From contig JAQUHB010000002.1 of the NCBI GenBank assembly GCA_028683835.1, positions 1 through 64,000 of the forward strand: a stretch of DNA of 64,000 bases. The letters are read 5' to 3'. This DNA comes from Sulfurimonadaceae bacterium (GTDB taxonomy: Bacteria > Campylobacterota > Campylobacteria > Campylobacterales > Sulfurimonadaceae). This document shows, piece after piece, positions 24,302-49,474 of the stretch. The number at the start of each line of letters is the position of its first letter. The first letter of the stretch is position 1. Under the pieces are notes generated by a model. It did no database searches. It saw only the letters and a list, made by a program, of their open reading frames with translations, and had not been told where the DNA came from. The translations under genes and the position numbers were made by a program.

Positions 24302-24326
24302 TGTCAATTCCAAGAATAAGTTGGAA
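24302..24326 (+). repeat. Left terminal inverted repeat
   Basis: Starts TGTCAATTCCAAGAATAAGT and ends TGGAA. Pairs with the right end (49450-49474, reverse strand) at 20 of 25 positions without gaps. Confidence 0.93.
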
Positions 24327-24365
24327 CAAAAACGCCTCTATATAGGCATTTTAAATCTAAATAAT

Positions 24366-24410
24366 ACAAAAACAAAGCGGAATATTTATAAGAAAAAAGC
24401 GGAATAAATT
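24366..24410 (+). repeat. Internal TnsB-site-like repeats at the left end
   Basis: Two sites: 24366-24387, ACAAAAACAAAGCGGAATAT plus TT, and 24393-24410, AAAAAAGCGGAATAAATT. The first is 21 of 22 identical to 49425-49446 on the reverse strand at the other end. Repeated 20-22-bp sites inside both ends are how Tn7-family TnsB binds. Confidence 0.8.
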
Positions 24411-24496
24411 GATATATACAATAATTAGCTGAGATAAATTATTATTTTTAACACTATATGTCATCAAAAATTAAATTAAAGGGATAAGAAGGTAAT

Positions 24497-26041
24497 ATGT
24501 CAGAAATATTTTGTGTTGTATGGAAAAATATGAGTTTTGGTAGCTTTCTAAAATCTTATCTTAAAGAGACATTTTTAGCGATCTTTATTGTCTTAATGAC
24601 TGCATTTTTATTTTTAGGTGCAAGATATACTGCATATAAATTCGATATAACAAGCCTAAAAAGTGTTGATACAGAAAAATTAGATGCTCTTTTGATACAA
24701 TTTTTTAAAGATGATTTTCAGCATAAATTTGTAAAAAATGATTTTTTACATTTCTATAGCGATGTAGGTTATTTATTACAAAGCAAGCAGATTAATATTA
24801 ATAATTACTCTTTATCTGAACAGTTTTTGGAAGCTCGAAATAAAAAAACCTACACCCGCTCAATGCAAGCCTTTGAACAAGGTTCAATGTTTGCAATTTC
24901 TGAAAAACTAAAAGATAGATTTCCAGAAATTAATACATTTTATATAAATCCTACAAACACTACTCAGAATATATATTTAAAAATTTATACACATGATAAT
25001 AAAATCTATCTAATCAATAAACCGTCATTCGACAAATTAAATACCAAAGAATTTATACATTTTGAAACACTTGGTGCAATTTTTGTTATTCCATCAGCAG
25101 AAATATATAAATCCTACAATCGCTCACTTGTTGGCATGATAGATATTGCTAAAGCAAATGATAAACAAGTACTAACAAATTTTGAAACTTCTGTTTCAGG
25201 CTTTTTAAAAGAGCTAATTATAGGGATTCTGATCCTGATTTTTGCATTACTGTATAGTGTTATAAAACATCTTCAGAAAATTTTTGTTAGAAAAGAAGAA
25301 ATATACAAGGATATATACAAGAGGGAAGAAGAAATCACTCGGAGAGAGGAAATAGTTTTTAATATCGAGCATATTTTACAACATGATACTAAAACAAATA
25401 TAGATGAACGTAATGAATATCTAACGCAACTCTATCATGATATAAAGAATTTAAATACTAACTCAAGTACAGAATCTATTCAAGATATGATCGTATTTCT
25501 TTTTGCTTTGGATCTAACAGTTAAACTTTCCAATGACTACATTAGAAGTACACCATTAAAAGTTGCACACTTCATAGCACATCTACAAAAAGAAAAATTA
25601 TTTAAATATGCCGAAGGGAACTTGGATTCATATGGAGAAATAGGTAAAAAAATACTTGAGAAAGTAATCATATTTGATATAAATCCTCAATTAGGCAAAT
25701 TAGATGACTTCCCTATCGCAAATGAGTTTTTTGAAAACGAGTTTACATGTGCAGTATTTCGACTCATTAATAATGCATTAAAACATTCATCCGATCACAA
25801 AGCAGAAATAAAAATCGGGTATGATTTCACCAATACGTTCAACATTACAATCATAAATGAAGTGGAAAACGTTGACAAAAGTTTATACAATATAGAAACT
25901 TCACTGAGTGGAGATGACGGAATTAAAAATATCTCTCATGCTAGAGAAAGTATAAAAAAATTTGATATGGTCATTGATTATGAACAAGATAAACAAAATT
26001 CTAAAATTTTAACTATTATTAAAAGGATTGGGGATGCTTAA
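24497..26041 (+). CDS. Transmembrane histidine kinase carried by the transposon
   Basis: 514 residues. A first helix near residues 25-42 (FLAIFIVLMTAFLFLGAR), a periplasmic domain of about 190 residues and a second helix near 235-255 (LKELIIGILILIFALLYSVI) precede a coiled coil rich in Glu/Arg. The likely phosphoacceptor is in QLYHDIKNLNTN. The ATPase domain has an N box (FRLINNALKHSSDHKAE) and a G box (GDDGIKNISHARESIKKF) but is divergent. It overlaps the receiver gene by 8 bases. It is the first gene inside the left end, 195 bases from the terminus. The input signal and its role in the element are unknown. Confidence 0.8.
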   Translation: MSEIFCVVWKNMSFGSFLKSYLKETFLAIFIVLMTAFLFLGARYTAYKFDITSLKSVDTEKLDALLIQFFKDDFQHKFVKNDFLHFYSDVGYLLQSKQININNYSLSEQFLEARNKKTYTRSMQAFEQGSMFAISEKLKDRFPEINTFYINPTNTTQNIYLKIYTHDNKIYLINKPSFDKLNTKEFIHFETLGAIFVIPSAEIYKSYNRSLVGMIDIAKANDKQVLTNFETSVSGFLKELIIGILILIFALLYSVIKHLQKIFVRKEEIYKDIYKREEEITRREEIVFNIEHILQHDTKTNIDERNEYLTQLYHDIKNLNTNSSTESIQDMIVFLFALDLTVKLSNDYIRSTPLKVAHFIAHLQKEKLFKYAEGNLDSYGEIGKKILEKVIIFDINPQLGKLDDFPIANEFFENEFTCAVFRLINNALKHSSDHKAEIKIGYDFTNTFNITIINEVENVDKSLYNIETSLSGDDGIKNISHARESIKKFDMVIDYEQDKQNSKILTIIKRIGDA

Positions 26042-26585
26042 TATATGGTTTATTGATGACAATGATGCTTTCTTAAAAACGATACGTACATGCCTTGGTG
26101 TCAAACAAAAATCTATGAGTGGAGTTTATAAAAACTCTGTTTCCATAACTATTCTTGATGCAAATATTGACGGAAGTAGCATTGTAAATACGATTCGTGA
26201 TTCAGGACATAAAACATCCCATATACCTGACTTTGTTTTTTTGGATTTAAGATTTCCTATAGACAAAAGACAGGCAAGTACAAACATTGATAATGATCCA
26301 TTAAAATTAAGTGGAATTAAAATACTTGATGCAATAATAGAAAATGATGTATATAAATCTACGATTCCTATTATTTTTACTGCAGTAAGTCTTGACCAAC
26401 ATGTAAAAGATTCGTTGACTAAACGAATGAGTCTTCAAAAAAGAAGAATTTTAATAAAAGAAAAATTTCCGGATATGAAAGACATGAACATTTCTATCGA
26501 TGGAATAGATGGATTTATAGCTTCAAAAAATTGTGATTCTTTACAGGAATTGGTTGAGAAGCTTTTGCATAAAATGGGAAAATAA
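26034..26585 (+). CDS. Receiver-only response regulator partner
   Basis: 183 residues from ATG at 26034, with AAGGA 6 bases upstream (TTG at 26028 is the alternative). LNIWFIDDNDAF holds the acidic pair, FVFLDLRFPID the likely phosphoacceptor Asp, and PIIFTAVSLD the conserved Thr. The loop between them is expanded and no DNA-binding or enzymatic output domain follows. It may signal by protein contact. Translationally coupled to the kinase. This is atypical enough that the pair may be a dedicated sensory switch for cargo or transposition. Confidence 0.75.
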   Translation: MLNIWFIDDNDAFLKTIRTCLGVKQKSMSGVYKNSVSITILDANIDGSSIVNTIRDSGHKTSHIPDFVFLDLRFPIDKRQASTNIDNDPLKLSGIKILDAIIENDVYKSTIPIIFTAVSLDQHVKDSLTKRMSLQKRRILIKEKFPDMKDMNISIDGIDGFIASKNCDSLQELVEKLLHKMGK

Positions 26586-26647
26586 CAGTTCAACAGCCTA
26601 TGTCAATCTTATAAAATAAACTCTGGCATAGAATAATATTTGGAAAT

Positions 26648-27382
26648 TCAATGACTTATAATGTTGTTGTGATCAACTGCTTTGATATCTAATCCAAATC
26701 CACCATTTTGAAGTCTAGCTTCAAAAAATCTTTTGTCTTTGAATTTTTCAAAAAAATAGTCTTTCGTTTCTTGTTCACAATGAACTCCAAAAATAATCTC
26801 TTTAATGATGCTATCTAGATCTATATTAAGCTTTCTTCCTTTTTCTGTTTTATCTATTGCTTCATCATATTCAAGTATTACTCTCCACTCTTTTTCATAT
26901 GCCCAATCGATCGACTTTGTTGACATAAGCTTATTGATTTCACACCATAATTGTTGCCCGTCAAATTCATCAATATTGATATTAACAGAATGTGTATAGC
27001 TTATATTCTGATACCTTTGCAAATTGAACTCATCGCCCGTAAAAGCTTTTTGAAATATTGAAGAATCATATCCGATGCAAATTCCCTTATGATAATCTGC
27101 GTAGTGCGACCACATAAGCATATTGTCATTATTCTCACAAAAACAAATAACCGCTTTTTTATCTATAAATTGTTCAACTTCAATGTATTTTTTTGTTTTT
27201 TTATCAGAAGGTAAATTTGGAATCTTATGTAATGCACAATCATATGGATCATTGAATGCTGAAGGATGAGACGCCCACATATATCCATTATCAAACGAGT
27301 CTTTAGTATAATTTGCTCGTTGACAATCTTTATCATACGTTTCTTTAAAATTATAGTATTTATAGAGTATTTTATATTCCAT
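26648..27382 (-). CDS. DUF2971 protein
   Basis: 244 residues. ILYKYYNFKETYDKDC, then MWASHPSAFNDPYDCALHK, VICFCENNDNMLMWSHYADYH, KGICIGYD and DWAYEKEWRVILEYDE are the hallmarks of DUF2971, a family of unknown activity often found in accessory and defence regions. Soluble, with no signal peptide. It faces the kinase/receiver pair tail to tail (62 bases) and is divergent from tnsA (250 bases). Confidence 0.85.
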   Translation of the reverse strand: MEYKILYKYYNFKETYDKDCQRANYTKDSFDNGYMWASHPSAFNDPYDCALHKIPNLPSDKKTKKYIEVEQFIDKKAVICFCENNDNMLMWSHYADYHKGICIGYDSSIFQKAFTGDEFNLQRYQNISYTHSVNINIDEFDGQQLWCEINKLMSTKSIDWAYEKEWRVILEYDEAIDKTEKGRKLNIDLDSIIKEIIFGVHCEQETKDYFFEKFKDKRFFEARLQNGGFGLDIKAVDHNNIISH

Positions 27383-27632: not shown

Positions 27633-28289
27633 ATGAGCGTCAGAAAAATAAAAAAGAGCTACATCTCTTGTACCGGCTATTTTGCAAGCAATAAAAATAA
27701 AGCACAGATTGCATTTGAATCAACACTTGAAAGAGACTTTTACATGCTTCTTGAGTTTGACAACAATGTCATTAAGTTTGAAGAACAGCCTATGCGAATT
27801 AAATATGAACACACGAATAAAAAGCGAAAATATACGCCGGATACTCTGGTAACCTACAAAGACGGTACTCAAAAACTTTATGAGGTCAAATATCTTGACG
27901 AATTTAAAAGTGATCCAAAACTCCAGTATAAAATAGACATTTTAAAAGAACACATTTTAAAAGAGTACAGCATCGAGTTTGATGTATTTACAGATGATAT
28001 GATCAATGGAATTTATTTGGATAATTTAAAATTTCTCTATAAATTTGTCAATGTTCCTATACTAGATGATAAACTTGACTCTGTTCAAAAAATCATTCAT
28101 AAAAACGAAGTAATATCAGTCCAGCAAATCTTAGCAAGTTTCACAGACAGCAAAATCAAACAACTCGAATACATTCCATATATTTGGCATTATGCGTGCC
28201 ATCATATCGATCAGCTCAATCTTCATGACAAACTGAATATGAATACGAACATATATTTTAAAGACTACATTCGACATGAAAAAAATTGA
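27633..28289 (+). CDS. tnsA: TnsA, Tn7-like transposase endonuclease subunit
   Basis: 218 residues. The restriction-type catalytic core is visible: Glu in FESTLERDFYMLLEFD, Asp in KYTPDTLVTYKDG and ExK in KLYEVKYLDE. FEEQPMRIKYEH lies between them. TnsA cuts the 5' strands at the transposon ends, allowing cut-and-paste movement. A C-terminal helical region then probably contacts TnsC. The stop overlaps the tnsB start by 14 bases. Presence of TnsA separates this element from Tn5053/Mu-type relatives. Confidence 0.93.
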   Translation: MSVRKIKKSYISCTGYFASNKNKAQIAFESTLERDFYMLLEFDNNVIKFEEQPMRIKYEHTNKKRKYTPDTLVTYKDGTQKLYEVKYLDEFKSDPKLQYKIDILKEHILKEYSIEFDVFTDDMINGIYLDNLKFLYKFVNVPILDDKLDSVQKIIHKNEVISVQQILASFTDSKIKQLEYIPYIWHYACHHIDQLNLHDKLNMNTNIYFKDYIRHEKN

Positions 28290-30114
28290 ATTCGAAAACG
28301 GCAGCGAGGTTTATTATCAGAATAGAGAATACACAGTCTTTCGCGCTGTAAATATAAATGAAATTGCTATCAAAGATCCTCTCACCAAAGAACAACTTAT
28401 AGTACCTATTTCAAAACTTTCTTCTACCAAGAGACAAGAAGAGCCACATCCCTTAGAAGAATACTCCAAAACAGACTGGAATGCCGCAAAGAATAAATAT
28501 GAAATCATTAAAGATCTTGTCTTTAAAAAACGTTCCCTTGAGGTTATCAAGGAAGTTGCAAGTAAAGCCGGTGTCAGTAAAACCACGATATATGAATGGC
28601 TTAAAAAATATGAACAAACTTCAGATATCAGTTCGTTAATCTCACAAACTTCAAAACGTGGCAAAAAAGGTTCGCGTTTGGACACAGATACTGAAAACGT
28701 AGTGTCTCAAATCATCAATGAAATGTATTTGAACAAACAAAGATACAGTTTTCAAAGAATCTACAACAAAATCAAAATGGAATGCAAAAAACTCGGTCTG
28801 TCAGCACCGCATTCTAATACTGTCCGAAATAGAATCGATAACATAGATCCAAGAGAATCACTGAAAAAACGCCACGGACATAGAGCCTACAAACAGCAGT
28901 TTGTAGAAGCATCTGGTGAATATCCTGAAGGAAACTACCCTTTTGAGGTAATTCAGATCGATCATACGCCTATGGATATTATTGTTGTTGATAAAGTGTA
29001 TAGAAAACCTCTTAAGAGACCGTATCTAACGGTGGCAATCGATGTCTATTCAAGAATGATTGCTGGAATCTATATCTCTTTAGAAGGGCCTGGATACTAT
29101 AATGTCAGCCAGTGCCTCTTTAGTGTTTTTTCAAAGAAAGATGATCTTCTGCAAAAATATGAGATACCAGGAGAATGGAATATTTACGGAATCCCGAGGG
29201 TCATCCATGTAGATAATGGTGCTGATTTAGTCTCTTATGATATGCAACGCGTATGCGACGAATTTGGCATCACTTTGTTCAAGCGCCCCGTCGGCCGCCC
29301 AGAATTTGCTGGTAGTATAGAAAGAGCTTTAAAGACTATCAACAGTCAAACACATGACCTACCAGGTACTACAAAATCAAATATCCAAGCCAAAGGGGAT
29401 TACGATTCACAAAAATATGCAACATTTACAATTGAAGAATTAACTAAATGGATTCTAATTCATATTGTGACTACTTATCATAAAAATTATCACAGCGGTA
29501 TAGGGATGTCACCCGAAGCAAAATATCTTCAGGGAATATTCGGTGATGACGAAAATCCTGGAACAGGAACACTTCCGCCGATATCAGATCATCTTGATGA
29601 TGTAAGAATTGCTCTCTTGCCTGCTTTTTTTAGAACTGTTCAAAGAGAAGGCATTGCGCTTGATGGCATTTACTACTATTCCGATGTGCTCAGATATTGG
29701 ATCAATAAAACCGATGACAAAGGTGAAAAGATCAAACACAAGATAAAAAGAGACCCCTATAATATAAAGACCATCTACTTTTACGATCCTGAACTGAAAA
29801 AATATTTTGATATCCCCTCAAGAAAACTTTCTGCACCATCTATGACACTTTGGGATATGTATGCTGCCAAAAGACACCTCAAAGAAAAACATAAATTAAA
29901 CTACAATGAAGACGACATATTTGCTGCGTATCAGATGCAAGAGAAGATAGAAGAACAGAGCGCACAACTGACAAGAGAATCTAAACGCAAACGAGCAAGA
30001 GCCTCTAATGAGAATCTTGTGCAAAAAACTAATACTATACCAGAGCAGCAAAACTATGAGTCTCTATTTGCAAATATAAAAATATTTGACGTATTTACAA
30101 GAGACGAATCATGA
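28276..30114 (+). CDS. tnsB: TnsB, DDE transposase
   Basis: 612 residues. An N-terminal helix-turn-helix (SLEVIKEVASKAGVSKTTIY) precedes the integrase-type catalytic domain with D229 in VIQIDHTPMD, D313 in RVIHVDNGAD and E349 in FAGSIERALK; D313 and E349 are separated by 35 residues, the classical D35E spacing. A Mu-transposase-type beta-barrel and a basic C terminus (SKRKRARASN) follow. TnsB binds the end repeats and joins 3' ends to target. It overlaps tnsA upstream and tnsC (4-base ATGA) downstream. Confidence 0.96.
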   Translation: MKKIEFENGSEVYYQNREYTVFRAVNINEIAIKDPLTKEQLIVPISKLSSTKRQEEPHPLEEYSKTDWNAAKNKYEIIKDLVFKKRSLEVIKEVASKAGVSKTTIYEWLKKYEQTSDISSLISQTSKRGKKGSRLDTDTENVVSQIINEMYLNKQRYSFQRIYNKIKMECKKLGLSAPHSNTVRNRIDNIDPRESLKKRHGHRAYKQQFVEASGEYPEGNYPFEVIQIDHTPMDIIVVDKVYRKPLKRPYLTVAIDVYSRMIAGIYISLEGPGYYNVSQCLFSVFSKKDDLLQKYEIPGEWNIYGIPRVIHVDNGADLVSYDMQRVCDEFGITLFKRPVGRPEFAGSIERALKTINSQTHDLPGTTKSNIQAKGDYDSQKYATFTIEELTKWILIHIVTTYHKNYHSGIGMSPEAKYLQGIFGDDENPGTGTLPPISDHLDDVRIALLPAFFRTVQREGIALDGIYYYSDVLRYWINKTDDKGEKIKHKIKRDPYNIKTIYFYDPELKKYFDIPSRKLSAPSMTLWDMYAAKRHLKEKHKLNYNEDDIFAAYQMQEKIEEQSAQLTRESKRKRARASNENLVQKTNTIPEQQNYESLFANIKIFDVFTRDES

Positions 30115-31034
30115 TGCAAAGTACATCAGCACTTCCAAACATCGATGATCTTAAAAATGCGGACGACGAAGAAAGAATAAGTTTCATAAGAAAGACGAAG
30201 TGGCTCAACTATCCTTTGGGGCAAAAAATATTAGACCAGCTTGAAGATCTCAAAAAATATGAACAGAACAAAAGTAGAGTCACGAGCATACTGATCATAG
30301 GCTCTGGAAACAGTGGAAAAACAGCTTTACTTAACCGCTTTATGGAGATACATCCGCCCTATGATATGTTCGAAAGTAATCCAGACCGGCTGACCACAGA
30401 ATTTTTCAATGAATATAATGCATTCGGAATCCCGGTTGTCTATATTGCGGCACCAGCCGAACCAAGTGAGACCAGACTGTATAGCATTATTTTAAATACC
30501 CTCAGTGCACCTTTCAAAGAGCGGGATACTGTTTCCCGCAAACAGTTTTTAGTCGAATATTACTGCAAAGTGCTCCATGTAGAGGTTCTCATTATCGATG
30601 AAATTCATAACATTCTTGCAGGCTCTCCAGCAAAACAACGTCAAATGATGAACTCTATTAAAAATCTTAGCAACAATCTTAAAATCCCAATCGTTCTAGC
30701 AGGTATTAAAGATGCTCTCAGAGCAGTTAGTACAGATACACAAATAAGCAGCAGATTTCGGCCAGTTTATCTACCAAAATGGACAATGGATCAAGATTAT
30801 ATCTCTCTACTTGGCACCATTGATTCAATTCTTCCGCTAAGAAAAAAATCTTCACTGCTCACTACTTCAGTCGCTTTGGAAATTTTAAAAAGATCACATG
30901 GAATTCTAGGACACATTATAGGTCTCACGCAAGCAGCCGCCATCCACGCCATTAAAACAAAAAGTGAAAAAATTACTCTTAATGAAATTCAAAATTGCGA
31001 ATATGATTCTGGAGAGGACACACGTGATGTATGA
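30111..31034 (+). CDS. tnsC: TnsC, AAA+ transposition regulator (TniB family)
   Basis: 307 residues. Walker A GSGNSGKT at residues 64-71 and Walker B VLIIDEIHNIL with D163-E164, followed by a sensor region (IPIVLAGIKDALRAV) and SSRFRPVYLPKW. It is shorter than canonical Tn7 TnsC and closer to TniB. It forms the ATP-dependent platform linking TniQ to TnsB. Start and stop each overlap their neighbours by four bases (ATGA), so tnsABC-tniQ is one tightly coupled operon. Confidence 0.94.
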   Translation: MMQSTSALPNIDDLKNADDEERISFIRKTKWLNYPLGQKILDQLEDLKKYEQNKSRVTSILIIGSGNSGKTALLNRFMEIHPPYDMFESNPDRLTTEFFNEYNAFGIPVVYIAAPAEPSETRLYSIILNTLSAPFKERDTVSRKQFLVEYYCKVLHVEVLIIDEIHNILAGSPAKQRQMMNSIKNLSNNLKIPIVLAGIKDALRAVSTDTQISSRFRPVYLPKWTMDQDYISLLGTIDSILPLRKKSSLLTTSVALEILKRSHGILGHIIGLTQAAAIHAIKTKSEKITLNEIQNCEYDSGEDTRDV

Positions 31035-32698: not shown

Positions 32699-33712
32699 TT
32701 AAAAAAGTACCCCTGCCTCTTCATAAAGCTTTTGCAGATAATCTGCAAGGTATGTCTTATTTCTTGAACTGTGAATTTTACTAAATTCTTCGTCATCAAA
32801 AGTATATAAAACATAAATGCCATCAACATCGACGATGGCATAGTATTTACCATCAAACGATATAAACTCATAAACATCTTCTTTATGTAGTAGTGTGTAC
32901 ACATTCTCTTCAGGAGGACCTGTATATATTTTCTTACACCCTTCATAAAATAACTGCATATGAGCAATAGCATTTTTTCGTTTATATGTCATACTTCTTG
33001 GATCAAGATAGAGTTCTTTAGCTATAGAATTAATATCATAAACTTTTTGTTGCACGGATGTTTGGATACTTTTTTTCTGCTCTTTTTGATACAGTGTATT
33101 ACTAACAAAGACTTCCACGTGGGTTTTCTTTGGAAATACAAACTTTGGAGCAAGTAATTTTTTAGAATTGTTTTTTTCAACGAGAAGAGTTTGAAGTTGC
33201 TCCTTTTTTGTATATCTGGTTGTTGAGATCATTTTATTCAGATCTATTTCTAGAATCAATGTCTCAATGGTATAGCTCTTTGCAAATCTATAACCTTTAT
33301 GAGATTCTTCCGGCGTTAAGAAGTAAACATTAAGCATACCGATAGAGGTAGTCAACTCTAAATCAAATCCGTTATTCTTTTTTTCTGCAGTAAGAATTTT
33401 TACTAAAGATGTATTTTTGTTGTATGGGATTTTATATAGACCATTCGTTTTATTAAGATCCAGATTAATATAACGAGTCTCTTTTAATATCTGTTTTGCC
33501 ATATCTCGCATAGAAACCCAAAAAGAGTAACTACATGTAGTCTGAGCTTTATCAGAATGGCTAAAGTGGTGTTCATTAATATCACCTTGTCTTGCTTTAA
33601 GTCTCATACTACAAGAGGGGCAGATGCAGTTACATCTAAGCCCTCGCGTGACTTCATCTATATCAACAAGTTTTTTTAGCGTATTTGAATAAGCAAAAGG
33701 TAAAAGTGCCAC
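32699..33712 (-). CDS. CoiA-like N-terminal zinc-domain protein
   Basis: 337 residues from GTG at 33712, preceded by a strong GGAGGG. The N terminus has CNCICPSCSMRLKARQGDIN then EHHFSHS, the Cys/His arrangement seen at the start of CoiA-family competence proteins and related putative nucleases. No clear nuclease motif is visible in the rest, which alternates beta-like and helical stretches. Cytoplasmic. The zinc domain is well supported; a nuclease or competence role is only a possibility, but notable in an element that also breaks dprA. Confidence 0.65.
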   Translation of the reverse strand: MALLPFAYSNTLKKLVDIDEVTRGLRCNCICPSCSMRLKARQGDINEHHFSHSDKAQTTCSYSFWVSMRDMAKQILKETRYINLDLNKTNGLYKIPYNKNTSLVKILTAEKKNNGFDLELTTSIGMLNVYFLTPEESHKGYRFAKSYTIETLILEIDLNKMISTTRYTKKEQLQTLLVEKNNSKKLLAPKFVFPKKTHVEVFVSNTLYQKEQKKSIQTSVQQKVYDINSIAKELYLDPRSMTYKRKNAIAHMQLFYEGCKKIYTGPPEENVYTLLHKEDVYEFISFDGKYYAIVDVDGIYVLYTFDDEEFSKIHSSRNKTYLADYLQKLYEEAGVLF

Positions 33713-34248: not shown

Positions 34249-34509
34249 TTATACGAATGGATTTTCCACAATATCTACTTTCTTTACTTCAACATGCTCA
34301 GGAAGATTACTACCTTTAAGCTCATCAATAGCTGAATCTATGATACGTTTAAGCTCATACGCATATTGTAGTCCCTCTTTGTCCTTAGTGAGATCGATTG
34401 AACCATAGATGCTTATTCTATCAAGTCTGTTCTCGACAGTAAGGTCAGCTCCAATTGTAAGTGCGTCTGATTCGTTTTGATAAGCTTGAAATGGTTTATT
34501 TGTTGGCAT
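34249..34509 (-). CDS. Small protein coupled to the exported nuclease
   Basis: 86 residues, acidic, no signal peptide, so cytoplasmic. FQAYQNESDALTIGADLTVE and RISIYGSIDLTKDKEGLQYA are its most distinctive parts. Its ATG overlaps the nuclease stop by one base (TAATG), so production is coupled. An inhibitor or immunity protein protecting the cell from nuclease before export is plausible but unproven. Not recognised as a named family. Confidence 0.65.
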   Translation of the reverse strand: MPTNKPFQAYQNESDALTIGADLTVENRLDRISIYGSIDLTKDKEGLQYAYELKRIIDSAIDELKGSNLPEHVEVKKVDIVENPFV

Positions 34510-37900: not shown

Positions 37901-38016
37901 ATAGTATCCTTCATTAGATACTACCAGAAATAAATATAAATCCATATAAATAGATGGTATAAATATTGCTTTAAGATAATTAAATGATTCAAATTATTTA
38001 AATTAATCTATTTTTA

Positions 38017-38694: not shown

Positions 38695-39780
38695 ATGAGT
38701 GCAAGAACAAGTGTTTTATCAGAAGAACAAAGACGTGAGCTACAAGTAGAAAACTTTATTTATCATATCATTAAAAAAGGTGAAGAACAACCTAGTTATC
38801 TTAGTGAAGTGATTTTAGCGAATGATAGACAACGTAACTTCTTTAAAAATATTATTGCTGAAACAGGACAAGGTACACAATACAGCTTTATAAGTGAATC
38901 TTCAAACTTCAAAACATCTTGTTTAAATATAATTAAAGACCCTGATAAAAACTTTGTTATAGAATCATGTAAGCTAGCACAAGACTTTTTATCACGACAC
39001 ACTGGCGGAAGTATGTCCGATGGTGTTTTTATTGTAGCTAGAGTAAGCATACCAAAAAATACAACAAGAGTCTCATTCATAGCATTGATAAAAGTTGACT
39101 ATATGCCTGTGATGAGACAGCATAGAGTTGAATCAGATGAGAATCGAGTTGAGCTAGAAGAGATATTAGAAGCTCTCTCTGAACAAAAAATTTCTGTACA
39201 GAAGAGAGCATTAATTGATATAAATAATCAATTTGACTGGGATGTATTGGCAGTAGAAAGAAGAAAAAGCGGTGCTGTACTAGATACAGAAGATGCCATT
39301 ACTGATTATTTCAAAAAGTTTATGGATATACGTTTAAGAGAAACTGATTCTGCTTTAACAAAACGAGTTGTAGTTGCATGTCATCAATGGGCCAAAAGTT
39401 ATGATGGTGACTTAAATGGTAGAACGCCTACAGACATTAGACAGTCTGTAATTAATCTTATGGATGCTTATGAAAATGGACAAATTGATTATGACGATTT
39501 GAAAGGACGTATCTGTACTCACCCGGAAAGAACTCAACAACAAAGAATAGAGCAGGCTTTTAATTCATATATGGATGAACAAGGCTTAGGCGGAGTATCT
39601 TTTTCACCGAAACCTAAAAGTATCTCATCAAGTGCAAGAAAAGGTGTTTGGGAGACTGACACAGGTATTAAAATCATATGGAATGGGCCCAGAAGTGAAG
39701 ATCAATTAAACAAGCGTGTTTTAGAAGATGGATCTGTTGTAATTACAATTAGAGCAAATGAAATAACAGAAAAAGAGTAA
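38695..39780 (+). CDS. NdpA/YejK-like nucleoid-associated protein
   Basis: 361 residues. The general pattern fits the 37-kDa nucleoid-associated family: DPDKNFVIESCKLAQDFLSR, SDGVFIVARVSI, ITDYFKKFMDIRL, LTKRVVVACHQWAKSY, FNSYMDEQGLGGVSF and the C-terminal TGIKIIWNGP followed by SVVITIRANE. In E. coli YejK the function is unclear but the protein associates with the nucleoid. Here its stop overlaps by one base the start of a membrane protein gene (TAATG), a coupling not typical of housekeeping ndpA. Similarity was judged by eye and is distant. Confidence 0.65.
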   Translation: MSARTSVLSEEQRRELQVENFIYHIIKKGEEQPSYLSEVILANDRQRNFFKNIIAETGQGTQYSFISESSNFKTSCLNIIKDPDKNFVIESCKLAQDFLSRHTGGSMSDGVFIVARVSIPKNTTRVSFIALIKVDYMPVMRQHRVESDENRVELEEILEALSEQKISVQKRALIDINNQFDWDVLAVERRKSGAVLDTEDAITDYFKKFMDIRLRETDSALTKRVVVACHQWAKSYDGDLNGRTPTDIRQSVINLMDAYENGQIDYDDLKGRICTHPERTQQQRIEQAFNSYMDEQGLGGVSFSPKPKSISSSARKGVWETDTGIKIIWNGPRSEDQLNKRVLEDGSVVITIRANEITEKE

Positions 39781-41327
39781 TGGAACACTTGAATTTATCT
39801 GCACTTGCGAATAAGCTATCAGTTTTAAGAACATTAGCAAATACGGCTCAGAAAGAAACTACAAATGGAATTTCCTACAGTGGGGACTTTAATCAAGAAG
39901 TAAAACAGATATTGGAAGATTTAAAACAAGTAATAATTCAATACAATCTAACTGGATTATATCTACAAATAGATGACTTAAATGAAGATTGGTCTACTTC
40001 TTTTCAAGGTTCTATCTCTAATTGGAGTCTTTCTATAGGAGATAAAAAAGAATTATTAGAATCAGCTGGAGTGATGTCAGTAGATGTAGACGCTTTTCTA
40101 TTCTTTAGTAAAGATTACTTTGTTAAAGAATGGCTAACAAAAGCTTCAAATATCAAAAAGTTAAATTCTATAAAACCTAAGAAGATATTCATAGATGGAT
40201 TAGAGTTAATATTTGGTGGACCACGTATCGCCTTTATACCACTGAATAAACAAACGGAGGAATTACCTTCTGAATGGCTAAAATCGACAAAGCTCCCGGA
40301 TAAAGAAAAAATACATAAAACAGTACATTTTATAACGTCTGAAGAAGATGACTTTTCACCAGAAAATTTTCTAATTACGTGGGGTGATATGGATAATAAG
40401 ATCGCTAGAACATTCCACATATTTTCTGCAAAAGCCCTTTTACGTACACTAGTACAAGAATATTATAATGATCAAAAGGCAATACTTTATGGTAAAAAAA
40501 GATTAGAAGTAAAAATTTCAGAACTGAATGAAGATGTCAATTTTATAAGTAAAAAAGATATTGATATCTTATATAAAATTGTTACATGGTGTTATGCAAA
40601 AGAAGATGAAACAACAAGAATACTACTATTAATAGATCGTTTAACCTTAGATATAAACCAAGAAAAATCACTGCTACACATCGTTCCAGAAATTATAGAA
40701 AAAGCATATGCAGAGGCCGAATCAAGATATAAGTATGTAATACTAGACAGAAAAGTAGAGTATACAAAAGAACTTGCTGAACTACAAAAAGATATATCAA
40801 ATATAGCCGATAAATATGCTGTTAGTACGAACGATTATATATCAGGTTTATTAAAAGATATACTAGCCTTTGCATTTGTTTTAACCGTAGGTGTTGTTGC
40901 AAAAAAGTTTATTGATGAAAAATTACTTTTTTCACCTGAAGCCGAATTATTGTTCAAAGCATTTGCAATATATTTATTTATTTCATTTTTTTTAAGAATT
41001 TTACATTTTATAATTGTTGTTTATCAGTTTGAAAAACTTTCTATTTCATGGAAAGAAATTGTTCGCAATCATATGTCGGCAAGTGAATTAAAGTCGTATG
41101 TAAATAAGGCTTTAAAAAGTGTTAAAATAACCTTTATATGTGTAGTTTGTTTAGTCAGCATAATTTATATCGGGATGGCTATAGCAAGTTGGAATAGTAC
41201 TTATATATTAAAATCAATAATTCATCCCATTAATGAGAATAATAAACCTAATCAAGGATTTAAAAAGCGAGAAGATAATTCAACAAATAAAATAAAAATG
41301 AAAGAATCTATAAAATCTCTGAAGTAA
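39780..41327 (+). CDS. Large protein with C-terminal membrane helices, coupled to the NdpA-like gene
   Basis: 515 residues. About 360 N-terminal residues are soluble and largely helical (WSTSFQGSISNWSLSIGDKK is the most distinctive part). They are followed by three hydrophobic helices: DILAFAFVLTVGVVAKKFI, LFKAFAIYLFISFFLRILHF and ITFICVVCLVSIIYIGMAIA. The tail is basic (NKIKMKESIKSLK). Not recognised. A soluble sensor next to a membrane effector is a common plan for abortive-infection systems, so a two-gene defence module is a reasonable hypothesis only. Confidence 0.65.
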   Translation: MEHLNLSALANKLSVLRTLANTAQKETTNGISYSGDFNQEVKQILEDLKQVIIQYNLTGLYLQIDDLNEDWSTSFQGSISNWSLSIGDKKELLESAGVMSVDVDAFLFFSKDYFVKEWLTKASNIKKLNSIKPKKIFIDGLELIFGGPRIAFIPLNKQTEELPSEWLKSTKLPDKEKIHKTVHFITSEEDDFSPENFLITWGDMDNKIARTFHIFSAKALLRTLVQEYYNDQKAILYGKKRLEVKISELNEDVNFISKKDIDILYKIVTWCYAKEDETTRILLLIDRLTLDINQEKSLLHIVPEIIEKAYAEAESRYKYVILDRKVEYTKELAELQKDISNIADKYAVSTNDYISGLLKDILAFAFVLTVGVVAKKFIDEKLLFSPEAELLFKAFAIYLFISFFLRILHFIIVVYQFEKLSISWKEIVRNHMSASELKSYVNKALKSVKITFICVVCLVSIIYIGMAIASWNSTYILKSIIHPINENNKPNQGFKKREDNSTNKIKMKESIKSLK

Positions 41328-41835: not shown

Positions 41836-41848
41836 TTGATATCAAAGT

Positions 41849-42391: not shown

Positions 42392-42853
42392 TTAATCATG
42401 TATAGCTTTTAAAATTCTCACAGGACTGACTTTGAAAAGAAATTCTGCTGCTTCATCCCAACTCATAGGACATGGCAAAGTGATCTGCTTAATAAAACCA
42501 TTCACATCTTGAACAAGATAGTTGCTTGTTTTTATACTTCGCTCATTCTCAGCTTCTTGAAGAGATACGAGATCTATTTTCTCAAACTCTTTAGAAATTT
42601 CTTCTTTAGTACCTTTGAGGATTTTGTATTTATATAGGCTGTTTAATGTCTTGACGGATAGTATGTCGTCTTCTAGCGACAAATCAACGATCAAACTAGT
42701 GCGATGTACCAAAGTATGACTAGTGAGGGCTTTTTCGTTATCAATAAAAACCATCCCGTGATCGACGTAAAATGTGCCTTCGCAGTCTTTATAATTTGTT
42801 AGTACACTAAAGTTAGTACTATCTATTAAACGAGCTCTGATTGTAGATTTCAT
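42392..42853 (-). CDS. Hypothetical protein, last gene of the phosphoesterase operon
   Basis: 153 residues, not recognised. Mostly beta-like in the first half (KSTIRARLIDSTNFSVLTNY), acidic and helical in the second, ending PVRILKAIHD. No membrane segment or Cys motif. The ATG overlaps the preceding phosphoesterase stop by 4 bases, so all three genes are coupled. A regulator or substrate-binding partner of the enzymes is possible. Confidence 0.65.
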   Translation of the reverse strand: MKSTIRARLIDSTNFSVLTNYKDCEGTFYVDHGMVFIDNEKALTSHTLVHRTSLIVDLSLEDDILSVKTLNSLYKYKILKGTKEEISKEFEKIDLVSLQEAENERSIKTSNYLVQDVNGFIKQITLPCPMSWDEAAEFLFKVSPVRILKAIHD

Positions 42854-43428
42854 AATAATTTTCTTTTTATAAGAAGTTCACCTAGTCGAATAGGAGTATA
42901 CCCAATTGCTTCAACACTAACATTTATACAATGGCTTTCATCAAGTTTCATTGAATGAATATGTCCGTGAATGTTAATGTCACAGCATTCATCATGAAAG
43001 ACTTTTGAGAGATACTGCCAATGTTCATTATCATATCCATCACTTACAATCGGATAATGACTAAAGAGGATTTTAATACCATCGACTTCGGCAATATGAT
43101 AAGCAGGGTTTCCTTTACTCGAAAAATCGATTACCTCTGTAAAACCGTTTTCAAGATAAACTTGCGGAGCCTTGTCATGATTTCCTCTTAGCAAATATTT
43201 TGTGCCATTGAGTTTTAAAGCCCATGTTTGAATAGATTCGCTTTTCCAGCTAAAGTCTCCAAGGTGAAATACAATATCATCTACACCTACTGTCTTGTTC
43301 CACAGATCAGCCATACGCTGATCTGGATTGTCGCCCAGAACAGTCTTGCGGTCCGGCTCATACTCTAAAACGTTGGCATGACCAAAATGAGTATCAGCGA
43401 CGATGAACGTATCGTTAGTGATTTTCAT
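42850..43428 (-). CDS. Calcineurin-like metallophosphoesterase (small)
   Basis: 192 residues. All blocks of the dimetal phosphoesterase fold are present: FIVADTHFGHANVL (DxH), IVFHLGDFSW (GD), KYLLRGNHDKAP (GNHD), IKILFSHYPI and CDINIHGHIHS (GHxH). It resembles small phage- or plasmid-borne phosphoesterases. Its nucleic acid or nucleotide substrate is unknown. It overlaps its neighbours by 4 bases on each side. Confidence 0.88.
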   Translation of the reverse strand: MKITNDTFIVADTHFGHANVLEYEPDRKTVLGDNPDQRMADLWNKTVGVDDIVFHLGDFSWKSESIQTWALKLNGTKYLLRGNHDKAPQVYLENGFTEVIDFSSKGNPAYHIAEVDGIKILFSHYPIVSDGYDNEHWQYLSKVFHDECCDINIHGHIHSMKLDESHCINVSVEAIGYTPIRLGELLIKRKLL

Positions 43429-44237
43429 ATTTCTATACTCTTCATATTGCTTTTGTAAAGTTCATATGCATTTACATGACACTGCACACCCTCAAATTCA
43501 TAGCTGTATGAGCTGTGTGTATGACCAAAAATCCAATGTTTCGCAGTTGTATTTTTCAGAAATTCGTGACCGTTAAAGCAATAAAAAGTAGTTGATCTAT
43601 TGTTACGATACTCTTGCGATATGTGCTCTGCTAAGAACGATGGATTGATATGAGTAATCATGACATCGCATTTTTGATATACAGCTTCAATTTTTGGAAG
43701 TTCGATTTTATACGGATCATCGAAGTTTTTGATTCCTTTGAACTGCTTGCCCTCTGGCATCAAAACTTTCCACATTCCGTTCATACCTTCGATACCTGCA
43801 AGTGGAAAATAAGTTCGTGAGAATGCAGAAGAGTACCAACCCATCGCTCCGCCGAATCTGATACCATCGATCTCGATTACATCTCCATCGAGGCAGTATA
43901 TCCCCTCTTTGTCATTGATGAGTTTCTTCATCTCATCGGCTCTTGCGAATGAATCATCATAATCATCTTCCATTATTCTATTCACTAGACAATAATCGTG
44001 ATTTCCAAGTACACAGATAATCGCCTTATATCCGTAGATCCTCTTTATCATATCCAATAAAGAGATATTCTGCTGATTGTTGTGTCCAAGATCACCGGCA
44101 ACGACAAGAACGTCACCGATCTCTCTGCCATCTTTTAAAAAATATTTATCATATGTTTTTCGTACATCTACCTTTGAACTGTAAATTTGTTTGAAATAGT
44201 AATCAAAATGCAAATCGCTTAAAATATCTATTTTCAT
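43425..44237 (-). CDS. Calcineurin-like metallophosphoesterase (large)
   Basis: 270 residues. MKIDILSDLHFDYYF (DxH), VLVVAGDLGHNNQ (GDLG), ICVLGNHDYCLV (GNHD), CDVMITHINPSF and KHWIFGHTHSSYSY (GHTH) are all intact, so it should be catalytically active. First gene of a three-gene operon with a second phosphoesterase. Its 5' end and promoter are partly duplicated at 35532-35660. A CAGTATAAT box lies on the reverse strand about 30 bases upstream of the start. Substrate unknown. Confidence 0.9.
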   Translation of the reverse strand: MKIDILSDLHFDYYFKQIYSSKVDVRKTYDKYFLKDGREIGDVLVVAGDLGHNNQQNISLLDMIKRIYGYKAIICVLGNHDYCLVNRIMEDDYDDSFARADEMKKLINDKEGIYCLDGDVIEIDGIRFGGAMGWYSSAFSRTYFPLAGIEGMNGMWKVLMPEGKQFKGIKNFDDPYKIELPKIEAVYQKCDVMITHINPSFLAEHISQEYRNNRSTTFYCFNGHEFLKNTTAKHWIFGHTHSSYSYEFEGVQCHVNAYELYKSNMKSIEI

Positions 44238-44546: not shown

Positions 44547-45386
44547 TTAAAATAAGAATCCTCCGTTGCAAAACCAATGACTCTCAGATAGTGCTTTATA
44601 CATTGCTGTTTTCCAAGAATTTTTATTATTCATAAATTGACTTTGATATTCTTCATATAAATGTTCTTGTACACTTGCCATACCATTGCTTCTATGGAGT
44701 TTTGATAAACGATATTGTATTCCGGATAGCTCTTCTGCAGCATGTGAGCTGTATAAATCATTTAATTCAAATAAATTAAAGTGTACTTTTAGTCTCTTTT
44801 CTATCATTGTCTCTACGGGGGAAGTTTTTATATAAAATTGAAGGCTAGGTGGACTAATTTCATTGACTGAAGCGAATAAATATTGTTGATCTGAGATATC
44901 ATCATAGTATGGATGTATAATTTCAGTATCGGATGAAGTAGGTTGATAAGTATCTTTTATTTTGTTGCAATCAGCACAAGCCGGTATTAAATTTATAGGT
45001 GATACTGCAAAAACAGGGTACTTTGTTTTTGGCAACACATGATCTAATGAAGATACTGTTCTTTCTCCACATAAGGGACATTTACGATTCTTTGCTGCTA
45101 ATTTTAGCTTGTCATAATATTTTCGACCAGGTTGTTTTTTTTTAACTAATTTATTTTCATACACATTTTTCATTTCCTTCATTGTTACAATACCATTAAC
45201 ATCTGTGGAAGGAGACAGGCTATATAACGAATTAGATGCTGCTTTTATCTCATAGTTATCAGTAGAATTTTGAATATAGGAACTTATACTCTGCAATTTT
45301 GCTTTAAAGGTTTCATCTTCAAAATTAGAAATACAATCTTCAAATACTTTTATTACATTGTCTGTAGGTTTATTAATATTCATCAT
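44547..45386 (-). CDS. HNH endonuclease, Septu PtuB-like
   Basis: 279 residues. The HNH centre is complete: CPLCGERTVSSLDHVLPK with the paired Cys, the DH, then NLIPACADCNKIKD with the second CxxC. N-terminal and C-terminal regions are helical. The gene directly follows an SMC-like ATPase gene with no spacer, the PtuA-PtuB arrangement of the Septu anti-phage system, in which the HNH subunit cuts DNA under control of the ATPase. No reverse transcriptase or ncRNA next to it, so this is not the retron form. Confidence 0.82.
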   Translation of the reverse strand: MMNINKPTDNVIKVFEDCISNFEDETFKAKLQSISSYIQNSTDNYEIKAASNSLYSLSPSTDVNGIVTMKEMKNVYENKLVKKKQPGRKYYDKLKLAAKNRKCPLCGERTVSSLDHVLPKTKYPVFAVSPINLIPACADCNKIKDTYQPTSSDTEIIHPYYDDISDQQYLFASVNEISPPSLQFYIKTSPVETMIEKRLKVHFNLFELNDLYSSHAAEELSGIQYRLSKLHRSNGMASVQEHLYEEYQSQFMNNKNSWKTAMYKALSESHWFCNGGFLF

Positions 45387-46904
45387 CTATGATAGATTCC
45401 TATTTTGCTTAAGATGCATTTTTACGCTAGCAAGAGCTTTTGCTTCCGATCCCAACTGATTTCCAAAACTAGACTTAACAGATTCATAGTCCTCATTTCT
45501 ATCAACAGATTTTTGAATTAAATTGTAAAAGCCTGAATTACTTACTTCTAGTCCAAAAACCTCGTGAGTTAATACACCGACATTTTCACCAAATGTTTCT
45601 CTTTCAGGTCTTTCTGCTTTTGCAGAAATATTAGAACGGCTTAGAATCCATGTACAACTTTTTGGCACCTCTTGAAGGATCACCGGAGAATGTGTAGCAA
45701 TTATTGCAACACCATTTCTTAGAACTAATAGTTCTGATAAAGATCGTATGAAAGCTGCCAATAGAGGTGGATGTAAATGAGATTCCGGTTCATCTAACAT
45801 AACCAAAGTCTTTTCTTCTACTGTTTCTACTAATCTCGTAATGGTTAATAATACTATTTTATGTCCAGAAGAAAGTTTTTTAAATATCTCAGAAGCCTCG
45901 TCTTTAAATTGTTGTTTATCTTCAATTTCAATAAGCTGTAATATCTCAGATTCTTTAAACATAGGATCAGACTCAAGTGTTGTTACAGCATTTATCCACC
46001 TTTCTTTTCTATTCCCTAACTTACAGTTTTCAAGACTTTTAACAAATTCATTTTTCAAAACAGTAGGGCTTTTAGGTAGACTATCCTTTTCATCATTCAC
46101 TTTAACCTTTTTCAAACCTATATAAGAGTATTTCAAGCCTTTTGTTCTATCTTTTTGATCCATCCGAGGTTCTGATTCATCAAATGCACTAAACGAAACC
46201 GAAACAACGTTTGCAAAAAGTATTTCTTCATCAGATACAAAAACACCATGCTTAGTTGTCCTTTCACTTGAAAATAAAGCATTCAACATATTACTTAATA
46301 AGTGTGTCTTGCCTACACCGTTCCGTCCAATAAGTACATGCACGTTTGTTGGAGGATTTGAGGTGGGTTCTACATTAAAAGATAACTCCATATGCAGATC
46401 ACTATTCCTTGGTTTTGGTGGAAAAAATTGAAAATCATAAGGAGTACGTATTGCTCCTCCATGTGCTATCCTATGGAATTGTCCTCTAACTTCCTGTGAA
46501 GAAACATCTCTAAGTAATGAAATACGTGTAACACGTTCTTTTTGTGCTCGTTCAAATAGTTCTAAATCAAAGGCAAAATCACGCAATGCTCTTAATATCT
46601 CATTACCTATTTCATCATCTAAGTTATTAAGATGACTGTAGTAACTTGTATCTTGTCCTACTGAAAAAAAAGCATCCATTAATACTTCAAAAGTCGGTGG
46701 AATAGCGGCTCTCCTTTGTTTCTCTACCATATTAAACTGACCAATTTTTATTTGTCCAATATGATGCCTAACATTGTTGCTATCATAATAGTGAAGAATA
46801 TATAGCGTACCAAATTCAAACCAGTCATCCCAATTATCATTAATTAGATATACGGTATTGCTTGTTGCTAAATTGGGTAATATGTCTAAAACTTGAAATT
46901 GCAT
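45387..46904 (-). CDS. SMC/OLD-like ATPase, Septu PtuA-like, with an N-terminal extension
   Basis: 505 residues. Walker A is GRNGVGKT at 193-200, the ABC-type signature region is KLSSGHKIVLL, Walker B is TLVMLDEPESHLHP and the switch is IIATHSPVILQEVP. The N-terminal ~180 residues (VYLINDNWDDWFEFGTLYIL) are not part of the standard ATPase and are unfamiliar; in most PtuA the P-loop is nearer the start. They may add a sensor. The stop touches the HNH gene directly. AAGGG precedes the ATG. Confidence 0.82.
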   Translation of the reverse strand: MQFQVLDILPNLATSNTVYLINDNWDDWFEFGTLYILHYYDSNNVRHHIGQIKIGQFNMVEKQRRAAIPPTFEVLMDAFFSVGQDTSYYSHLNNLDDEIGNEILRALRDFAFDLELFERAQKERVTRISLLRDVSSQEVRGQFHRIAHGGAIRTPYDFQFFPPKPRNSDLHMELSFNVEPTSNPPTNVHVLIGRNGVGKTHLLSNMLNALFSSERTTKHGVFVSDEEILFANVVSVSFSAFDESEPRMDQKDRTKGLKYSYIGLKKVKVNDEKDSLPKSPTVLKNEFVKSLENCKLGNRKERWINAVTTLESDPMFKESEILQLIEIEDKQQFKDEASEIFKKLSSGHKIVLLTITRLVETVEEKTLVMLDEPESHLHPPLLAAFIRSLSELLVLRNGVAIIATHSPVILQEVPKSCTWILSRSNISAKAERPERETFGENVGVLTHEVFGLEVSNSGFYNLIQKSVDRNEDYESVKSSFGNQLGSEAKALASVKMHLKQNRNLS

Positions 46905-47720: not shown

Positions 47721-47722
47721 CG

Positions 47723-48167: not shown

Positions 48168-48198
48168 ATTACATTTAGTCAATATGACTCAATGTAAT
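48168..48198. promoter_or_regulatory. 31-bp inverted repeat in the DUF2188 upstream region
   Basis: ATTACATT, T, AGTCA, ATA, TGACT, C, AATGTAAT: symmetrical apart from the T/C pair. It lies between the stop of the 367-residue gene and the DUF2188 start. Operator or terminator cannot be separated from sequence. No gene is visible in the rest of 47951-48299. Confidence 0.5.
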
Positions 48199-48299
48199 CG
48201 ATAGTAAGTAATTTCAATCTGAATTTTTATTGCTTTCAACTACTAAATTTTTTCCAGTTATTCAAATTTTTATTTCCTGAGTAGTAAATAATCGTACAA

Positions 48300-49403
48300 T
48301 TAACTTTGAGTATTGACATCACTAAACACAAACTTTTTGAAATTTTCGTACCACTGAATAGTTTCTTTCCCTCTAAACATCATATAGAATGACGAAATGG
48401 CAAATTTGTAAAAAATATAATTAAATTCATCATAAACAAACTTTTTTAATTTTTTATATGACATTGCATGTTCAAAAAAAAACTTCATAATTAGAGGTGC
48501 ATAATAATTCATAAATTCATTTCCATTAGAAAAATGACGAGATCGAAATATCCAAACATTTTCTTTAATAGAAGGGTGTTGAATTGTAATAATTAGAAAA
48601 CACCGTTGAAAGTCTTCTATACTTGAATGTTCTACCTTAAAAGAATAACTATGAAAATCCATTCCATCTATTACATTAATTCCAAGAAAACTAAAATCAT
48701 ATCCCACAGTGCTATTTCTATAATTGCAGCGTGCAACGTCAAATTCTTTTTCAAGTTTTAATAAAATAGCGTAATAAAAATTTTCGTGTACAAAAGAAAA
48801 ATATCTTTGAACATTATCTAGTTCCAATTCTTGATATCCTTCATCAATCCTCGATTGATGTGATGGAAATCTAAACAACAAAGTTTCTAATGGATACTTA
48901 ATATTCTCTTGTCCAATTACATTAGCAATAAGTAAACTATCATTTAATTCTTCAACACCTAAAGTAACATAAAATGGGCTTAAGGTAGGAAGAATACTCT
49001 TTATTGGCTTATTGGACTTGTTTACTGCTGTTTGAAAATAATGATAATAAAACCCATTAGAGTAAATACTACTGGAAAGAATTTTTCCTAAATGTAGAAT
49101 ACTTTTATAATTTAACTTAGTATTGATTTCAAAATCTATTCGTATATCACCATTTTGTCCTTTACTGGTACTTAAATATAACAAAGATAGACTACCACTT
49201 TTTGCAGCCTTATCGAATATTTTCCATGGTGCATAAAAATAATGATAAATAGCTTTACATGTAAGTAAAAGTGTGTACTGTTGATACTCAAAAACATACG
49301 CCCATTCGTCCAAATCAAGATAAGTATATTTAAAGGTATTCGTAGGTTTAATAATTTCCCTCAATCTAACAAGCTTACCCTTAGATGGATCTATTAAAAA
49401 CAC
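48300..49403 (-). CDS. Orphan 367-residue protein beside the right end of the transposon
   Basis: Starts at GTG 49403 with AGAGG 6 bases upstream, only 72 bases inside the right end. Aromatic-rich and soluble: KYTYLDLDEWAYVFEYQQYT, then HYFYAPWKIFDKAAKSGSLS, PIKSILPTLSPFYVTLGVEE and a helical C terminus. Not recognised, and no Cys or nuclease motif was seen. A fixed place beside the end opposite the tns genes is where Tn7 keeps accessory transposition factors, so a transposition-linked role is possible. There is little room for a promoter; transcription may come from the disrupted dprA operon on the same strand. Confidence 0.65.
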   Translation of the reverse strand: MFLIDPSKGKLVRLREIIKPTNTFKYTYLDLDEWAYVFEYQQYTLLLTCKAIYHYFYAPWKIFDKAAKSGSLSLLYLSTSKGQNGDIRIDFEINTKLNYKSILHLGKILSSSIYSNGFYYHYFQTAVNKSNKPIKSILPTLSPFYVTLGVEELNDSLLIANVIGQENIKYPLETLLFRFPSHQSRIDEGYQELELDNVQRYFSFVHENFYYAILLKLEKEFDVARCNYRNSTVGYDFSFLGINVIDGMDFHSYSFKVEHSSIEDFQRCFLIITIQHPSIKENVWIFRSRHFSNGNEFMNYYAPLIMKFFFEHAMSYKKLKKFVYDEFNYIFYKFAISSFYMMFRGKETIQWYENFKKFVFSDVNTQS

Positions 49404-49424
49404 TCTAAACCTCTATAATTCTTA

Positions 49425-49446
49425 AAATATTCCGATTTGTTTTTGT
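49425..49446 (-). repeat. Internal TnsB-site-like repeat at the right end
   Basis: On the reverse strand ACAAAAACAAATCGGAATAT plus TT, 21 of 22 identical to 24366-24387. It lies 28 bases in from the right terminus. Confidence 0.8.
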
Positions 49447-49449
49447 ATA

Positions 49450-49474
49450 TTCCAGTTTGTTCTTGGAAATTACA
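49450..49474 (-). repeat. Right terminal inverted repeat
   Basis: On the reverse strand it begins TGTAATTTCCAAGAACAAAC and ends TGGAA, matching the left end at 20 of 25 positions. Confidence 0.93.

Follow-up and report, generated by a model that had tools for sequence, protein, structure and literature searches.

Tn7 inserts beside glmS and leaves that gene intact, whereas the element described here splits the gene in which it lies. It is a Tn7-like transposon of 25,173 bp (positions 24302-49474) lodged inside dprA, and it was found in a stretch of 64,000 nucleotides from a Sulfurimonadaceae bacterium (positions 1 to 64,000 of contig JAQUHB010000002.1, assembly GCA_028683835.1), hereafter called the window. 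DprA loads RecA onto the single strands that enter the cell; in the species studied, natural transformation is abolished or strongly reduced without it. Transformation genes are described targets of mobile elements. Tn6022 targets comM (Faure 2023, PMC10293859), and prophages and other elements disrupt comYC, comFA, comK, and comM (Croucher 2016, PMC4774983); the latter work argues that elements gain from disabling transformation. A description of dprA as a Tn7-like attachment site was not found among the open-access papers listed; most subscription papers lay outside this search, and a prior mention is possible. The word dprA is absent from the main texts of PMC10293859, PMC8649781, and PMC11406308.

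TnsB searches covered four overlapping sets of genomes: 398 of the order, 228 of the family (E up to 1e-100), 104 of the family of genome G390 (1e-150), and 397 of the phylum (1e-140). A TnsB of one clade was present in 18 genomes including that of the window, the other 17 proteins being 45-57% identical to the window TnsB; the searches of the G390 family and of the phylum yielded no new clade genomes. In 12 of these 18 genomes, the element resides in dprA, a gene of about 0.8 kb in a genome of 2 Mb (the element positions of G082 and G052 were not placed). One more insertion, in G105, was found via its split dprA and has part of the distal core gene (see below) on one contig. This gives a total of 13 dprA insertions in related Campylobacterota genomes, window included. 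All 13 are flanked by a perfect 5-bp duplication, and in all of them the dprA frame is open after joining of the flanks. Numbered according to the DprA of the window, eight insertions are located at codon 57 (window, G390, G487, G311, G069, G127, G099, and G105) and five at codon 90 (G367, G369, G395, G225, and G437). On the protein alignment, the codon-57 insertions share an identical column and phase, as do four of the five codon-90 insertions; that of G225 lies 2 nt upstream. TGT is found at both ends in 12 of the 13 elements, while in G367 AGA replaces ACA at one end. An alternative GAAAC copy as the G367 junction was ruled out, as it gave three extra residues in the joined frame. The orientation is constant, with the tnsA side towards the 3' part of dprA in all 12 elements with readable tns genes. 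A repeated attachment site used in a fixed orientation, the mark of recurrence for Tn7-like elements, is what we observed. The original prediction, made from one insertion, had called dprA the home of a Tn7-like lineage and had named a search for the same ends and flanks elsewhere as a check. The TnsB and dprA searches made here revealed insertions in dprA of other genomes with perfect duplications throughout, and the claim now extends to 13 insertions at two positions, in one orientation in 12.

The dprA splits were drawn from among the matches listed, and further splits, caused by other elements, may exist. The two-piece dprA of G111 and the partial dprA genes of G171, G015, G026, and G160 run up to contig ends or break off close to them; these genomes were excluded from the count. 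Also outside the count are genomes with weak or partial matches in the dprA search (G101, G151, G178, G181, and G184) or with no match in it (G021, G065, and G133). The dprA of G001 (L047) shows a stop in its reading frame along with a short gap, with no inserted element found there, and was not counted either. G129 (L045, L059), whose genome is 89% complete, contains two different near-complete dprA genes; contamination or a second copy is possible.

The boundaries of the window element are defined by the following features.

23690-24301, minus strand: dprA 3' part, Pfam PF02481
24297-24301, no strand: target-site duplication GCAAA, adjoining the 3' part of dprA
24302-24326, plus strand: tnsA-side terminal inverted repeat, with TGT beginning at 24302; 20/25 match with the other end
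24369-24382 and 24393-24404: tnsA-side inner repeats
49430-49443: distal-end inner repeat
49450-49474, minus strand: distal terminal inverted repeat, with ACA finishing at 49474; 20/25 match with the other end
49475-49479, no strand: target-site duplication GCAAA, adjoining the 5' part of dprA
49475-49647, minus strand: dprA 5' part, Pfam PF02481

The GCAAA duplication is perfect, and none of 20,000 composition shuffles reached at least 20 identical positions in the terminal repeats (best shuffle, 17). Both flanking pieces match the Pfam family DNA_processg_A. When joined with a single GCAAA, they align over 600 of 600 bp, gapless and with 92.5% identity, with the dprA of G058, in which the gene is intact and which belongs to the genus of the window genome. 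Neither piece has internal stops, the ratio of non-synonymous to synonymous changes (pN/pS) against G058 is 0.15 overall, and the break lies directly ahead of the conserved SGGAMGVD stretch. The G+C content of the element is 31.4%, compared to 37.4% and 35.7% in the flanks. A search of the window genome (G000; 2.51 Mb, 88 contigs) at E up to 1 gave only these two pieces of dprA, an extra match with E 0.099 and 30% identity being at chance level. Its comM is uninterrupted, and the window element is not in comM. An assembly artefact was rejected, since the same structure is present in the single-contig genomes G225 and G437. The TGT/ACA ends, the inverted repeats, and the duplication had been predicted exactly to the base; likewise, the proposed tnsA-tnsB-tnsC-tniQ operon appears as four Pfam matches in a row, and the alignment with an uninterrupted relative, suggested at the time, is that with G058.

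The core genes of the window element are listed below.

27633-28289, plus strand: tnsA, Pfam PF08722
28276-30114, plus strand: tnsB transposase, Pfam rve and Mu-transpos_C
30111-31034, plus strand: tnsC, TniB-type AAA ATPase, Pfam PF05621
31031-32164, plus strand: tniQ, 377 amino acids (aa), proposed reader of the dprA site; Pfam PF06527, structure-model matches to Tn7 TnsD/TniQ, tree
48300-49403, minus strand: fifth core gene, short form of the TnsE-like family, from the family comparison across related elements

A comparison of open reading frames (ORFs) among the elements of 12 genomes gave five widely common families, namely TnsA, TnsB, TnsC, TniQ, and the product of a distal gene. Each is missing from just one genome (present in 11 of 12), the tns genes from G105 and the distal gene from G082, both of which are incomplete. 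No other family was present in more than three genomes. The fifth core gene lies on the strand opposite to the tns genes, usually by the distal end, and adjoins tniQ in G487. Its family resembles TnsE weakly, through the long form (about 555 aa). Three long-form proteins matched Pfam TnsE_C below the cut-off (E 0.003, 0.063, and 0.15), and for an AlphaFold model of the G094 long form (mean predicted local distance difference test score, pLDDT, 69.6) the top seven PDB matches were all TnsE C-terminal domains (probability 0.98-1.00). Searching PDB sequences with a profile of the TnsE-like family gave nothing. The distal protein of the window is a short form (367 aa). It is linked to the family through related short forms, such as that of G437 (E 7.6e-10), and had no convincing match among the long forms; we are therefore unsure whether it acts as TnsE. 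Within 2.5 kb after the window tniQ, there is no ORF of at least 120 aa on the tniQ strand that might encode a TnsF; no TnsF profile was run. In some other members, tniQ is followed by ORFs, none of which belongs to a further family present in more than three genomes.

Which of these proteins reads the dprA site was approached through phylogenies. In a TnsB tree of 29 rows, a chosen subset of loci from which TnsB below 450 aa and TniQ below 280 aa were excluded, the dprA clade comprises 18 rows with a support of 100/99. It was also recovered in a 68-row TnsB tree, which left out nine named loci and TnsB below 450 aa, with the 12 rows then known (100 in the Shimodaira-Hasegawa-like approximate likelihood ratio test, SH-aLRT). 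G146 (TnsB 39% identical, dprA intact) was left out of the trees. The TniQ tree unites the five codon-90 elements in one clade (100/99), with the codon-57 TniQs outside, whereas the TnsB tree places the codon-57 element of G390 within the codon-90 group. In approximately unbiased tests (p-AU), TnsB rejected both a grouping of all codon-90 elements (0.026) and one of all codon-57 elements (1.3e-5), and TniQ rejected a grouping of G390 with G225 and G437 (0.004). G390 is 39-41% identical to four codon-90 elements in TniQ and 60-64% in TnsB. TniQ thus probably reads the dprA site, because its phylogeny, unlike that of TnsB, unites the codon-90 elements. The model of the window TniQ (mean pLDDT 73.3) had Tn7 TnsD as its best PDB match (E 1.3e-5), followed by other TniQ structures, with low template modeling (TM) scores. 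Each insertion position is followed on its 3' side by codons of a conserved DprA stretch, SGGAMGVD-like in the case of codon 57 and GLDxxYP-like in that of codon 90, and these codons would be the natural candidates for TniQ-binding regions.

Four of the 13 elements (G369, G069, G127, and G099) carry a complete, divergent dprA of their own, whose Pfam match was checked for G369; an intact dprA was searched for in the other nine hosts and not found. The carried gene has the strand of the broken host gene in all four cases (in G099, this was deduced from its direction relative to tniQ on another contig), and in G369 it is the next gene after the TnsE-like one. The copies of G069, G127, and G099 are 92-93% identical to one another and 57-59% to the dprA of their own hosts. 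Their mutual pN/pS values of 0.11-0.14 indicate that selection keeps these three copies working. In G369, the carried gene has 51% identity with the dprA of its host, and none of 200 bootstrap trees (0%) joined it to the other three copies. Two separate acquisitions are therefore likely, even if the well-supported branches, taken by themselves, do not require them. The simplest reading of the spare copies is that some lineages fare better when DprA is retained. A ComEC-type Competence domain was detected in all 15 genomes tested, i.e., the 13 hosts, G058, and G094.

Taken together, we consider it quite probable that the window element belongs to a Tn7-like clade with dprA as its dedicated chromosomal attachment site, which would be read by TniQ and whose use would block transformation. 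According to this model, TniQ would bind the codons of a conserved DprA motif on the 3' side of the insertion point and load TnsC, whereupon TnsA and TnsB would integrate the element a set distance away. Through a change in TniQ, the position would shift from codon 57 to codon 90. The TnsE-like protein would probably serve a second, less specific route, which would account for the sublineage outside dprA. The insertion breaks DprA and should block natural transformation, and this block would shield the element from replacement by transforming DNA. The dprA insertion may have been selected for this effect. The dprA carried by four elements would most simply offset the damage. We give about even chances to the most specific version of this model, in which TniQ is the sole reader and its changes shift the position between the two motifs, and in which lineages abolishing DprA stand beside lineages with a foreign dprA, probably acquired twice, that would make host competence dependent on the transposon.

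Several observations weigh against this model. The dprA pieces are on separate contigs in G105, G311, and G099; the two contigs of G105 are without tns genes, and G105 was not among the family TnsB matches. The host dprA is intact in six clade genomes (G094, G082, G143, G164, G163, and G052), which form a single branch within the clade (100/100). A 17.6-kb clade element is present twice in G094 (L101/L142 and L102/L143). One copy lies in flhF, a gene recognised by eye in the translation, and has the duplication GTATG; the other has TTTAT and adjoins an apparent lone element end. The two copies are 99.99% identical, which suggests a recently mobile relative. The element of G163 (duplication ACTAA) is not in dprA, and left ends were found outside dprA in G143 and G164, where right ends were looked for and not found. 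For TniQ, neither the codon-90 elements plus G390 (p-AU 0.073) nor all codon-57 elements together (0.080) were rejected as groups, and the groups for these tests were named after the trees had been seen. Fast evolution of TniQ relative to TnsB could partly produce the conflict between the trees, which is suggestive, not proof, because TniQ evolves fast in this clade. The TnsE likeness of the G094 model is weak (best E 6.5e-3, none below 0.001). Moreover, the TniQ of Tn6022 (369 aa) requires TnsF (PMC10293859). Finally, four of the 13 elements carry a dprA, and loss of DprA is not universal; to call the insertion always a competence knock-out would be too strong, because these four bring a spare.

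Some of these points lend themselves to other explanations. The members at unrelated sites, such as those of G094 and G163, might suggest that a loosely targeting Tn7-like element hit dprA by chance, but 13 insertions at two positions of one gene refute this and leave it virtually no probability. A doubtful but serious alternative is that dprA is used as a conserved and dispensable safe harbour, the transformation block being a side effect of no benefit to the element. Other Tn7-like elements indeed occupy sites unconnected with competence, namely glmS, yhiN, parE, and tRNA genes (PMC11406308), and four elements of the clade carry a dprA. Against this stand the related groups that interrupt comM, another transformation gene, and G390, in which both genes are split. 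Furthermore, the elements of the window and of G395 carry an endonuclease; DNases of C. jejuni elements, which may or may not resemble it, are reported to reduce transformation (PMC4774983). It is rather unlikely that the site is read by the TnsE-like protein or by an unrecognised partner acting with the short TniQ, as TnsF does in Tn6022. Besides that precedent, the TnsE-like gene is found in 11 of the 12 genomes compared, the twelfth being the incomplete G082; yet G094 and G163 have it too, with elements outside dprA, and neither the ORF survey after the window tniQ nor the family comparison provided a partner.

Two further alternatives concern the dprA genes themselves. The carried copy could work against competence rather than as a repair, by analogy with a pneumococcal prophage that lowers transformation by raising host DprA (PMC12637031). 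In the pneumococcus, the effect works through DprA switching off competence regulation, a mechanism not known to operate in these hosts, and the host copy is broken in all four elements found with a carried dprA; a regulatory role of extra DprA is thus improbable. We hold it to be more improbable still, to the point of being hardly tenable, that the two dprA pieces work together, or that the 3' piece alone is active, and that the host remains competent. The lack of internal stops and the low pN/pS against G058 would agree with working pieces, but open frames are expected for a young insertion, and the break directly precedes the conserved SGGAMGVD stretch.

Besides the core genes, the window element contains the following cargo.

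24497-26585, plus strand: two-gene cargo unit (24497-26041 and 26028-26585), no Pfam family above cut-off
26648-27382, minus strand: DUF2971 protein, candidate PDC-S31 (Pfam, PADLOC)
32699-33712, minus strand: CoiA-N-like protein, weak match under the curated cut-off
34509-35378, minus strand: DNA/RNA non-specific endonuclease, Pfam PF01223, apparent N-terminal signal sequence read by eye
36566-37945, minus strand: radical SAM/B12-binding protein (Pfam)
38065-38634, plus strand: uracil-DNA glycosylase superfamily protein (Pfam)
38695-41327, plus strand: NA37-like nucleoid protein and 515-aa protein
42392-44237, minus strand: two metallophosphoesterases and a 153-aa protein
44547-46904, minus strand: Septu/PDC-M01-like defence pair (PADLOC)
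44547-45386, minus strand: HNH protein of this pair, HNH read by eye
45387-46904, minus strand: PtuA-like ATPase of this pair

The PADLOC scores of the defence pair were 3.8e-104 for PDC-M01B, 1e-205 for PDC-M01A, and 3.5e-191 for PtuA1. Together with the DUF2971 candidate and the remaining cargo, the pair is in line with the defence-rich cargo reported for Tn7-like elements (Benler 2021, PMC8649781). Among 31 related loci compared, the endonuclease has a relative in L099 (G395) only, and the CoiA-N-like protein has none. Cas effectors were not matched among the window proteins scanned, which were part of the ORFs; CRISPR arrays were not searched for. The two-gene unit between the tnsA-side end and tnsA resembles, by eye and without Pfam support, a sensor/regulator pair.

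Several TnsB groups related to the dprA clade split comM, and the comparison with comM made in the original prediction was borne out by these groups as well as by the target of Tn6022. At seven Campylobacterota loci (L108, L109, L110, L113, L125, L128, and L129), tnsA is adjoined by a comM piece that begins at residue 285-301, and the same arrangement, with a piece beginning at residue 267-291, was seen at 18 of the 39 loci of another set; the comM identity was Pfam-checked for seven proteins. L122 is tagged comM in the 68-row tree, yet its comM runs from residue 38 on. In G390, related elements split both dprA (L098) and comM (L129). Only a 5' part of comM was found in G099 (G099:C125:14765-15583), extending to residue 286, the usual comM insertion point, and in G367 comM was not found. 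At L111 (G272), the comM 3' piece lies beyond the far side of the tns genes, unlike at the other comM loci. The elements at L007 and L021, inserted in comM, encode one long TniQ each (547 and 544 aa), which is not immediately followed by a gene of TnsF size; accordingly, comM may be read by different selectors. A large sister TnsABC-TniQ clade of Campylobacterota comprises 15 TnsB rows (L112, L114, L116-L121, L123, L124, L126, L127, and L130-L132); its stretches examined contain neither a split dprA nor a split comM, and in L127 an uninterrupted dprA lies some 6 kb away from tnsA.

With these insertions, not only comM but also dprA is a transformation gene that has a Tn7-like lineage of its own, which fits the idea of a conflict between mobile elements and natural transformation. 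A natural comparison for testing this idea is that between elements that bring a spare dprA and those that do not. One short TniQ and two sites within one gene also make the clade a simple system for DNA reading by TniQ, and insight into such reading would be useful for retargeting Tn7-type insertion tools.

In comparison with known systems, the window element shares with Tn7 the heteromeric transposase and the 5-bp duplication. Tn7 follows a two-pathway logic with a TnsD-like and a TnsE-like branch, and the clade of the window would follow a similar one. The competence-gene prophages insert likewise into competence genes and have prompted the same conflict argument, but they employ other integration enzymes, and dprA is not among the insertion targets named in the available text (PMC4774983). 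Closer are the comM elements at the seven Campylobacterota loci, whose TnsABC-TniQ are related (TnsB 37-42% identical) and whose tnsA side likewise faces the 3' part of the split gene; they differ in the gene interrupted, with a tnsA-side piece that begins at residue 285-301 of ComM. The window TnsB is ~34% identical to homologues from Acinetobacter plasmids, which were not confirmed as Tn6022. Tn6022/AbaR resembles the window element in combining TnsABC with TniQ, in hitting a transformation gene, and in its remote TnsE by the distal end, where the window element has a candidate with weak TnsE likeness in its family (PMC10293859, PMC11406308). In contrast to Tn6022/AbaR, the window clade has no TnsF that we found, it hits dprA at two positions, and some of its members bring along a copy of the target gene.

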